A stretch of DNA of 20,399 bases from IMG/VR virus record IMGVR_UViG_3300042541_001266, positions 1 through 20,399 of that record. One strand, written 5' to 3'. The notes under the pieces are model-generated. The model had not been told where the DNA came from. It saw only the letters and a program-made list of their open reading frames with translations, and ran no database searches. Source of the stretch: a virus. Shown one piece after another: positions 4,791 to 7,294 of the stretch; the first letter of the stretch is position 1; every line of letters starts with the position of its first letter. The position numbers and the translations under genes are program-made.

Positions 4791-4885
4791 TGCCCCACAA
4801 CATTCTCGGCTGGACCATGTTCGCGTTTTTCAGCATCGCCGCGCTTGGCGGGGCGGGCACGAACCCGGAAGATTGGGAAGTGTGA
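4790..4885 (+). CDS. Micro-gene: 31-residue hydrophobic peptide
   Basis: This ORF begins in a TGATG overlap with the previous gene and ends in a TGATG overlap with the excisionase-like gene. The 31 residues have a weak membrane or signal-like segment (LGWTMFAFFSIAALGGAG) and end in NPEDWEV. Coupling on both sides is the main evidence; no family is recognised. Confidence 0.45.
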   Translation: MPHNILGWTMFAFFSIAALGGAGTNPEDWEV

Positions 4886-5268
4886 TGGATTCGCCAATGC
4901 CACTAGAAATTGCAGCAAGAAGGCATTTTCCCGAGGGGGGTGTAACTATCCCCATGATGCGCGCTGCGATCCGCAAGGGCGAGTTGACTTGCGAACGGAT
5001 AGGGCGGTCATACTTCGTGACCATAAATGACATTAGGGAGTGGAGGAACAAATGCCGCGTAAAAGGCTCCCGGCAAGGCTTTATCTCAGACAACGGGAAA
5101 GCCGTGAACCCAGATGGGTCATTATCGATGGACGAACGGAAATCGACACTGGCTGCGGCCCTGGCGACTACAAACAGGCTCAAGACCAACTCGGGGAATA
5201 CATTGCGGAAACGCGGGAGATCGACACCAGCACTCGGAACCCCGCTCAGATTAGTTGCGCCGACGTGA
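4885..5268 (+). CDS. Excisionase-like HTH protein whose tail overprints the integrase
   Basis: Starting at the ATG in TGATG (4885), the frame gives 127 residues. Residues 16-56 form a MerR/excisionase-type winged HTH: EGGVTIPMMRAAIRKGEL, then the wing ERIGRSYFVTINDIREW. Such proteins bend attachment-site DNA and direct the integrase to excise. The position directly before int fits. Residues from about 58 on are low in recognisable structure and lie on DNA that also encodes the integrase N-terminus in another frame, an overlap of 217 bases. The HTH part is convincing. Whether the tail is a functional overprint or simply lacks an early stop cannot be settled here. Confidence 0.7.
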   Translation: MDSPMPLEIAARRHFPEGGVTIPMMRAAIRKGELTCERIGRSYFVTINDIREWRNKCRVKGSRQGFISDNGKAVNPDGSLSMDERKSTLAAALATTNRLKTNSGNTLRKRGRSTPALGTPLRLVAPT

Positions 5269-6101
5269 TAGCTCTTTACAGCAAGCACCACCCAGCCGCG
5301 CCTGGGTGCTACCACGCCAAGCCGCTTCTCGATTTTTTTGGCCTCAAGACGCTGAGCGAGATCAACGGCCAGCTATGCCGGGACTATCGCGCTGACCGAG
5401 GCAAGAAGGTGGTGGACTCCACGGTGCGCCGCGAACTTGGGACATTTCAAGCCGCCATCAATTTCTGGCACCTTGAGAGCCCCCTCAATGCGGTTCCGGT
5501 TATTACCAAGCCAGCCGAAAGCGCGCCGCGCGACCGGGTGCTGACCCGCACCGAAGCGGCCAAGATGCTCAATGCAGCCCGCAAGCTGCGCCTGCCCTAC
5601 GTTGCCCGGTTTATTCTGTTGGGCCTCTACACCGGCACCCGCCACGCCGCGCTGCTCAGGCTGCGCTGGTACGAGACGCCCGATGCCGGGTGGATTGATG
5701 CAGAGCGGGGGATCATCTATCGGGCCGGGAAAGCCGAGAAGCAAACCCGGAAGCGGCGCGGAACTGCCCGCCTGCCTGATAGGCTCCTGGCCCATGTCCG
5801 CAGATGGGCGCGCGTGGACCTTGGGGCGGGGCCACAGACGGCGGTCATCCGCTACAAGGGCAATCCCATAGGTCGCCAGCAACGGGGCTGGGAGGCCGTC
5901 CTAAAGGCCGCAGGATGCGAAGATGTGACGCCGCATGTGCTCAAGCACTCGGCCACCACATGGCTTCTGCGGGAAGGGATCGACCTGTTCGACATATCGG
6001 CGCTGACATCAACCAGCATGAAAACGCTGGAGGCGGTTTATGCTCACCACTCGCCTGAGTTTCAAAAGTCTACTGCGAACGCCTTTAGGAGGAGAGCATA
6101 G
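5052..6101 (+). CDS. int: Tyrosine-family site-specific integrase
   Basis: The start chosen is ATG 5052, with GGAGG at 5042-5046; an upstream GTG at 5040 is weaker. The product has 349 residues. The N-terminus (MPRKRLPARLYLR) matches the arm-binding start of alphaproteobacterial phage integrases. A core-binding SAM-like domain (about 66-150) and the catalytic domain (about 160-345) follow. Catalytic residues seen are Arg197 in LGLYTGTRHAALLRLRW, a basic hairpin (KAEKQTRKRRG), His295 in TPHVLKHSATTWL, and the nucleophile Tyr330 in VYAHHSPEF. In the H-x-x-R box the Arg is Lys298. It should recombine the tRNA-Val(GAC) core at 6720-6769. Only one gene separates it from attP. Confidence 0.93.
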   Translation: MPRKRLPARLYLRQRESREPRWVIIDGRTEIDTGCGPGDYKQAQDQLGEYIAETREIDTSTRNPAQISCADVIALYSKHHPAAPGCYHAKPLLDFFGLKTLSEINGQLCRDYRADRGKKVVDSTVRRELGTFQAAINFWHLESPLNAVPVITKPAESAPRDRVLTRTEAAKMLNAARKLRLPYVARFILLGLYTGTRHAALLRLRWYETPDAGWIDAERGIIYRAGKAEKQTRKRRGTARLPDRLLAHVRRWARVDLGAGPQTAVIRYKGNPIGRQQRGWEAVLKAAGCEDVTPHVLKHSATTWLLREGIDLFDISALTSTSMKTLEAVYAHHSPEFQKSTANAFRRRA

Positions 6102-6103
6102 AA

Positions 6104-6643
6104 ATGGTTGCATTAGTGAGTTCCCGCAGCGAGACTGAGATCAAGCAGCTTGGATCGCAAGCCACACTCGCCGGATATGCCAGAGCGGCATTCAGCGAAA
6201 TGTGCCGGGTCGCTGCCGGTGCCGGTAATGTTGACGCGGCACTTAAAACGCTGGTGGGGTTTCACGCATGCCTTTCTGACATCGAAGAAGATGGCGACCT
6301 TACAAAAGCGCAAATACAAGCCGCTTTTCAGTCTGCCTTACGGTTGTGGCTGGATAACTCGTTGGTTTATGAAGAGGACGATCCAGCTCAAGACATTGAA
6401 ACAATTGCGCGCGGGAGCTTGCGATTTGTTGCGTCAGAATTGACCGGCAACCGGACCCAGGCCGCTCTTGCACAAACCCAGATTTACGACGGGGTCATTG
6501 CCATCGAACAAATTCGCCAGAAGAACGCGATGGGCCATGACGCATGGGAGGAGCGGCAGGCTTTCACCAAATGGCGGGCAAGCGTGGCTTACAGAAAATG
6601 GGCGGCGGATGACCGCAAGGCAAACGGCTTCATTGATTTGTGA
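6104..6643 (+). CDS. Unknown protein between integrase and attP
   Basis: A 179-residue, acidic, mostly helical protein preceded by an AGGAGGAG ribosome site (6088-6095). It begins two bases after the integrase stop, so it is co-transcribed with int. No signal peptide, membrane helix or clear motif is visible; the C-terminal end (EERQAFTKWRASVAYRKWAADD) is amphipathic and rich in Trp/Arg/Lys. I do not recognise a family. The place between int and attP is often used for lysogeny-associated accessory genes, but nothing in the sequence proves such a role. Confidence 0.65.
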   Translation: MVALVSSRSETEIKQLGSQATLAGYARAAFSEMCRVAAGAGNVDAALKTLVGFHACLSDIEEDGDLTKAQIQAAFQSALRLWLDNSLVYEEDDPAQDIETIARGSLRFVASELTGNRTQAALAQTQIYDGVIAIEQIRQKNAMGHDAWEERQAFTKWRASVAYRKWAADDRKANGFIDL

Positions 6644-6644
6644 A

Positions 6645-6664
6645 AACCGGGCAATGCCGGGCAA
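6645..6664 (+). repeat. Left-arm direct repeats, two copies
   Basis: AACCGGGCAA (6645-6654) and TGCCGGGCAA (6655-6664) are direct repeats with a 10-base period, about one helical turn. The same motif recurs three times on the other side of the core. They are candidate arm-type binding sites for the integrase N-terminal domain or the excisionase. Confidence 0.6.
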
Positions 6665-6682
6665 ATAAAAAAGGAACAGACT

Positions 6683-7294
6683 ATGTCGTCTGCTAAGTTG
6701 TTGATTTTGTGGGAGAAAATGGTGGGTGGTACAGGGATCGAACCTGTGACCCCTACCATGTCAAGGCAGCGCGCACTAGCTAACTGTTTGATATATAATG
6801 AAATAGTCACGTCAAAATTCGCTAATTGTTCCCGTTATATTCACGGGAATACCGGGCAAAACCGGGCGAAAACCGGGCGCGGACTCTGGTTCTGGATTGT
6901 TGCCGCGCTGGCTATAGGCATCCAGCCATGCCACGCCGCCGACGCAACCCGGCTGGTGGCCGCCGAGGCCCGCCGCCAGGGCGTGCCGGTGGCGTTCGCG
7001 CTCCGCGTGGCGCGGGTAGAGAGCGGCGTGCAGTGCCATCGCCATAACAAGAGCGGGGCTAGTGGCCCCCTACAGATCATGCCCGCCAGCGCCCGCGCGC
7101 TGGGCTTCCGTGGGAATATCCGCAAGGCGTCCTGCTCGGTGCAGGTCCATTGGGGGATGCGCCACCTCGCCATGTGTTACCGGGGCGCTCGCGGCAACCA
7201 GCGGATTGCAGCGGCATGCCACTATCAGGGCGTCAGCGCCTTGCGTCGGGTTAGCCGATCCGGGGCGGCGTATGCGCGGAAGGTGCGGAAATGA
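6683..7294 (+). CDS. Lytic transglycosylase (SLT-like), ORF reading through attP
   Basis: The frame from ATG 6683 (AAGGA at 6671-6675, good spacing) gives 203 residues. Residues 13-30 (MVGGTGIEPVTPTM...) are the antisense translation of the tRNA core and 31-65 come from the right arm. A signal peptide follows (about 66-85, RGLWFWIVAALAIGI, cleavage near CHA-ADA). The mature SLT-like domain (about 87-200) has the catalytic Glu113 in RVARVESG and the family motif SGASGPLQIMPASARALGF. It would cleave the glycan strand of peptidoglycan in the periplasm. The only other usual start in frame is TTG 6788, without a ribosome site. The 66-residue leader before the signal is odd, so the true start is uncertain while the enzyme call is good. 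It overlaps the next gene by 4 bases. Confidence 0.75.
   Translation: MSSAKLLILWEKMVGGTGIEPVTPTMSRQRALANCLIYNEIVTSKFANCSRYIHGNTGQNRAKTGRGLWFWIVAALAIGIQPCHAADATRLVAAEARRQGVPVAFALRVARVESGVQCHRHNKSGASGPLQIMPASARALGFRGNIRKASCSVQVHWGMRHLAMCYRGARGNQRIAAACHYQGVSALRRVSRSGAAYARKVRK
6694..6706 (-). promoter_or_regulatory. IHF-binding consensus, left of core
   Basis: On the - strand the 13 bases read AATCAACAACTTA, a full match to the IHF consensus WATCAANNNNTTR. It lies between the left arm repeats and the tRNA core, where IHF would bend the DNA so that an arm-bound integrase reaches the core. Confidence 0.65.
6720..6769 (-). other. attP core: 3' half of tRNA-Val(GAC)
   Basis: On the - strand this segment holds an anticodon arm with 7-base loop TTGACAT (anticodon GAC), variable bases GGGTC, the T arm ACAGG-TTCGATC-CCTGT, the acceptor strand ACCACCC, discriminator A and an encoded CCA. 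The anticodon stem is complete, with one G-U pair (CTGCC/GGTAG). The 5' acceptor strand (GGGTGGT expected) and a normal D arm are missing, so it is not a functional tRNA gene. Such a fragment lets the phage rebuild the 3' end of the host tRNA after insertion. The 5' side of the true crossover identity cannot be fixed without the host sequence. Confidence 0.88.
6781..6793 (-). promoter_or_regulatory. IHF-binding consensus, right of core
   Basis: On the - strand the bases read TATCAAACAGTTA, again a full match to WATCAANNNNTTR. It begins 12 bases beyond the tRNA-like anticodon stem, similar to the close H' site of lambda attP, and is followed by A/T-rich DNA up to about 6840. Confidence 0.65.
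6829..6849. repeat. Inverted repeat within the right arm of attP
   Basis: TTCCCGT (6829-6835) and ACGGGAA (6843-6849) are perfect 7-base inverted repeats around a 7-base A/T-rich spacer. The repeat touches the right-arm direct repeats, so it may bind the excisionase or another accessory protein. It is also compatible with a weak RNA hairpin. Confidence 0.45.
6850..6880 (+). repeat. Right-arm direct repeats, three copies
   Basis: TACCGGGCAA (6850-6859), AACCGGGCGA (6860-6869) and AACCGGGCGC (6871-6880) repeat with a period of 10-11 bases, in the same orientation as the two left-arm copies. The set of five shared CCGGGC motifs on both sides of the core is the reason to call them integrase arm sites. 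Confidence 0.6.

Follow-up and report, generated by a model that had tools for sequence, protein, structure and literature searches.

Positions 6645 to 6880 of the window (that is, the whole 20,399-nucleotide stretch of viral DNA analysed here) very probably represent the attP of a temperate phage of the Alphaproteobacteria, which goes together with an int/xis cassette of the phage 16-3 type and, by predicted protein binding, would form a lambda-like Int/IHF intasome. The parts of the site and of the cassette are as follows, with offsets counted from a coordinate zero at 6761, the middle of the anticodon loop.

4873–5268, plus strand: xis-like ORF of 131 aa, overlapping the start of int with its 3′ half
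5052–6101, plus strand: tyrosine integrase (Int) of 349 aa, with N-terminal, core-binding and catalytic domains
6645–6880: attP, 236 bases
6646–6652, plus strand: first P-arm repeat, ACCGGGC, at −114
6656–6662, plus strand: second P-arm repeat, GCCGGGC, at −104
6694–6706, minus strand: left IHF consensus match, AATCAACAACTTA, at −61
6720–6766, minus strand: 3′ half of tRNA-Val(GAC), from the CCA end to the anticodon stem, the identity block with attB
6758–6764: predicted 7-bp crossover (overlap) region, the anticodon loop ATGTCAA, centred on 6761
6781–6793, minus strand: right IHF consensus match, TATCAAACAGTTA, at +26, its spacer varying among relatives
6826–6831, plus strand: TTGTTC motif, at +65
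6851–6857, plus strand: first P′-arm repeat, ACCGGGC, its hexamer at +91
6861–6867, plus strand: second P′-arm repeat, at +101
6872–6878, plus strand: third P′-arm repeat, at +112

The elements on which the initial annotation had based its attP were all recovered. The hexamer CCGGGC stands on the plus strand at 6647 and 6657 and again at 6852, 6862 and 6873, with a spacing of 10 on the left and of 10 and 11 on the right, and the two exact matches to WATCAANNNNTTR, both on the minus strand (6694–6706 and 6781–6793), are the only exact ones in the 20,399 bases. The tRNA-Val(GAC) 3′ half at 6720–6766 is the same as the 3′ half of intact tRNA-Val(GAC) genes in host genomes, and ARAGORN found no complete tRNA in the window. 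The site is flanked by phage genes, with int and an ORF on the left and SLT, metallophosphoesterase and tail genes on the right. As for the attP having been called complete, the core, both arms and the IHF matches are indeed present, but completeness itself can only be presumed, the left IHF match not always being kept among relatives.

The same anatomy is conserved in the closest relatives, here called the Val clade, which include four viral contigs (L002, L003, L017 and L019) with an Int 72–78% identical to that of the window. All four carry the tRNA-Val core with two repeats to its left and three to its right, as in the window. A further site, L008 (G001), is attR-like. Because its orientation is opposite to that of the int end with which it shares a contig, L008 was treated as an attR in its own right instead of being paired with the prophage L004. 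In these six sites (the window, the four contigs and L008), the P′ repeats stand at +91, +101 and +112 within a base, the five-base repeat patterns for L003, L017, L019 and L008 beginning one base later. All six have an exact right IHF match at +26, its four-base spacer changing among the sites, with L017 and L019 sharing one. The left repeats are located at −92/−82 in L002, at −103/−93 in L003 and L004, and at −114/−104 in the window, L017 and L019 being about equal to the latter; that is to say, the second left repeat of the clade is found at −82, −93 or −103/−104, in steps of 10–11 bp or about one helical turn. The left IHF match falls short of the full consensus in L003, L004, L019 and L044, and some relatives have a weaker left match or none. 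A search for more Val-type attP sites by core and IHF pattern gave four new loci, none of them with a detected relative of the window integrase. The earlier proposal to compare the repeats with related attP sites was thus answered in favour of the annotation: the layout and the right IHF match are kept, and the record of 16-3 annotates a functional attP, 260 bp long and spanning −138 to +121, that encloses the predicted arm repeats of 16-3 itself. Since the relatives in which both arms are readable have phased repeats flanking the tRNA core, sequence comparison supports the reading as an attP and a putative intasome.

Integrated forms of the element are also observed. The prophages L004 and L044 (Int of L044 is 48% identical) end in attL-type junctions, in which int is followed by the left-repeat pair, a complete tRNA-Val(GAC) and then host DNA. 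For L044, P′ repeats at the opposite end had been predicted from the rule before they were looked up; next to its second tRNA-Val half, which sits at a contig end, ATGGGC repeats were found at about +91 and +102, and because the two ends lie on two contigs, they are likely, though not proven, to belong to one prophage. The host tRNA-Val(GAC) gene that had been expected was found in the hosts of the relatives, and the identity block could be defined as the 3′ half to just past the anticodon loop. The identity between attP and intact host tRNA-Val genes stops after CAAGG, and the attP sequences diverge two bases beyond the loop. To judge from this comparison, the crossover probably takes place at the anticodon loop, a feature shared with the 16-3 module. 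The tRNA 3′ half (at most one mismatch) is present in 19 of the 69 genomes of the MAG family of L004, all listed places being exact, and integration into the tRNA-Val(GAC) gene seems to be common in this family. IHF alpha was above the cut-off in all four host genomes tested. In L091 (G299:C18), a tRNA-Val half and a full tRNA-Val(GAC) that point the same way enclose 16.6 kb, in which no relative of the window integrase was found. On the MAG contig of L090 (G001:C20:1-19990) and L008, a second tRNA-Val half that is attR-like and accompanied by P′ repeats stands inverted relative to the int-proximal junction, which may be due to a chimeric assembly, an inversion or a second prophage.

In a GC-rich genome, the CCGGGC array might consist of repeats that have arisen by chance, and the bare hexamer is in fact common, with 18 copies in the window versus 20.4 expected. 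Since this is no enrichment, the evidence of the repeats lies in the way they cluster in phase to the left and right of the core. The two-sided phased array (10–11 bp period) scores 4.6 at the attP, which is the maximum of a slide over the whole window and was reached in 0 of 1000 dinucleotide shuffles, whose peak is 3.2. Of ten attP arrays, nine beat all 60 shuffles, and that of L062 was reached by one shuffle. With the geometry being conserved in spite of different sequences, chance is already refuted, and this explanation was rejected as next to impossible. For the IHF matches, the 16 bits and the expectation of 0.007 calculated earlier are arithmetically correct; whole-window shuffles give 0.27 expected exact matches to the consensus versus 2 found, and the slightly looser WATCARNNNNTTR has a mean of 0.018 in shuffles of 6645–6880, which reflect the local composition, two copies being reached in 0 of 1000.

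Two other explanations concern the state of the site and the partner of its repeats. The stretch could be an attL or attR junction or a remnant, in which case the tRNA half would be a scar, and a virus record of 20 kb may well be a fragment. However, phage genes lie on both sides of the site, both arms are present and the tRNA 5′ half is absent; moreover, the joined structure is shared by L002, L003, L017 and L019, and an attL would carry the full tRNA instead. This explanation was rejected as very improbable. It is also conceivable that, with a real core and real IHF sites, the CCGGGC repeats bind Xis or a repressor and not the N-terminal domain of Int, a proposal in keeping with the potentially regulated genes that adjoin the repeats and with the secreted-protein reading frame that crosses the P′ repeats. 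It is considered unlikely, as all clades examined have direct repeats on both sides, in register and at a constant distance from the crossover, and their spelling shifts between integrase clades while their positions stay. An attP with arm-type repeats for Int is the preferred reading.

The int/xis cassette lies to the left of the attP. The xis-like ORF is 36% identical over 109 aa to the annotated Xis of 16-3 (E 2e-14), its first 65 aa give a weak PHROG excisionase match, and it is 53–68% identical in L002, L003, L017, L019 and L090. Int matches PF00589 (3.5e-11), and the catalytic residues R197, K234, H295 and Y330 are present, with K298 at the Arg-II position (H-x-x-R). Lys occupies this position in all six close Val-clade integrases (the window, L002, L003, L004, L017 and L019; HVLKH or HTLKH) and also in L047 and L033, and Arg is found in L044 and most other relatives. 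The activity of Int is therefore not self-evident, although the Lys is conserved across the clade. The AF2 model of Int has a pLDDT of 83.6 and a pTM of 0.57, which makes the placement of the domains uncertain. Its N-terminal part is a three-strand sheet (residues 9–15, 18–26 and 29–32) with a helix (40–54). In Foldseek, the model matches the lambda Int structures 1z1g, 1z1b and 5j0n over nearly the full length (351–369 columns), with a large whole-chain rmsd, as a different placement of the domains would lead one to expect; a sequence search of solved structures with Int returned mostly catalytic-domain relatives. Within the Val-site group, residue 13 is Arg where the repeats contain GGGC (the window, L002, L004 and L044) and Lys where they contain GGCC (L003, L017 and L019). 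Residue 13 as a determinant of the repeats is a lead only, as the independent cases are few and distant clades combine R13 with other repeats.

Between int and the attP, positions 6104–6643 hold a 179-aa ORF without a family match. Its slot contains a different stretch in L003 and nothing in L002 and L004, and to judge from sequence this region is a variable cargo slot.

On the basis of these parts, the following course of integration may be proposed. The N-terminal domain of Int would hold the arm repeats, five copies of CCGGGC of which P has two and P′ three. IHF bound at −61 and +26 would bend back the two arms, and the same Int molecules could then place their catalytic domains on the core. 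Strand exchange would follow over 7 bp, the anticodon loop of tRNA-Val(GAC). Through integration, an intact tRNA would be rebuilt beside int and the old 3′ half would be left next to the P′ arm, and Xis would help the reverse reaction. The share of each single repeat in these steps is likewise only presumed.

The P′ arm has two further peculiarities. TTGTTC occurs at +54, +65 or +75, in steps of 10–11 bp, in most relatives from four clades, and L003, L100 and L104 do not have this spelling. A 6-mer common to four clade representatives arises in 0.8% of shuffles, the motif having been picked post hoc. The left arm of several Val-clade sites has a mirrored GGAAC-like motif. It may be asked whether TTGTTC is a Xis site. 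In addition, the frame of a secreted SLT-domain protein (6683–7294 in the window) extends backwards across both the P′ repeats and the tRNA half, and the frame with the signal peptide possibly starts in or just before the P′ repeats, with GTG in L002 and ATG in L104. The P′ arm and the start of a gene thus seem to overlap.

The type of site is already known, and what is added here is a fixed geometry with a changing spelling of the repeats. Arm-type sites usually need footprinting, one integrase at a time. In the relatives studied, the position of the arm sites is conserved and their spelling is not, and they can therefore be read from sequence. Somewhat more probably than not, the 16-3-like attP geometry is fixed as a rule, with P′ repeats at +88 to +91 and +99 to +102, the spelling is re-set in each clade together with the N-terminal domain of Int, and the P arm changes in length only in steps of about a helical turn. 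If this is true, an arm-recognition code would become readable for many integrases from sequence alone. A layout that is kept while its repeats are respelled would be a natural data set on DNA recognition by integrases; with the closely related integrases whose repeats contain GGGC or GGCC, specificities could be swapped in order to examine DNA reading by the N-terminal sheet, and the 10–11 bp steps of the left arm are natural variants for testing the helical phasing of the intasome.

In the lambda scheme, the N-terminal domain of Int occupies arm sites, and IHF bends the DNA between these and the core sites (PMC4880445). The window shares with it the arm/core/IHF plan and, by structure match, the fold of Int; its lambda-type (heterobivalent) features are an N-terminal arm-binding domain, repeats on both sides of the core, and IHF sequence matches between core and arms, of which the right one is conserved. 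However, there is no close sequence relation, half a tRNA serves as the core in the window, and its repeats stand in tandem on both sides, 10–11 bp apart. IntS of the KplE1 prophage (argW) also has a tRNA 3′ end as its target and an intasome with arm-type and IHF sites (PMC2951348), and it differs from the window in its arm motif and gene order.

The phages with names that come nearest are rhizobial, and the model phage 16-3 is among them; for 16-3, the facts were taken from the GenBank annotation (NC_011103) and other papers. Window Int is 32.5% identical to 16-3 Int over residues 1–345 (E 3e-41). In both, xis overlaps int, the attP lies downstream of int and the tRNA 3′ half is cut at the anticodon loop, the annotated 23-bp core of 16-3 being centred on the tRNA-Pro anticodon loop, the same loop as the zero of the window. 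16-3 has two direct repeats per side (−118/−106 and +91/+101), spelled TTGCC and not CCGGGC at equal positions; a third P′ repeat was not seen in it. It also differs in its target, tRNA-Pro(CGG) instead of tRNA-Val, in its IHF match (+38 on the plus strand versus +26 on the minus strand) and in having Arg at Arg-II. Owing to the different arm-repeat sequence, the window site is a relative of the 16-3 module that is not interchangeable with it. The Rhizobium phages RHph_Y1_10, RHph_Y25, PPF1 and phi3LM21 (Int 35–38% identical to window Int) also target tRNA-Pro and have CGGTCCG repeats in both arms, with P′ at +88/+99, the record of phi3LM21 covering the left arm only. Several phages of this RHph type have three left repeats, unlike the two of the window, and the Val-type right IHF match was not found in them at the thresholds used. 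Elsewhere, the spelling is TTGCC in 16-3, X2_25 and AP-16-3, and CTGTACC in L067. In these more distant clades, RHph-type phages included, the first P′ repeat keeps to +88 to +91 and the second to +99 to +101. Across four clades with different spellings, the P′ repeats are found at +88 to +92 and +99 to +102; the arm-repeat sequence, in which its clades differ, does not define the 16-3 module.
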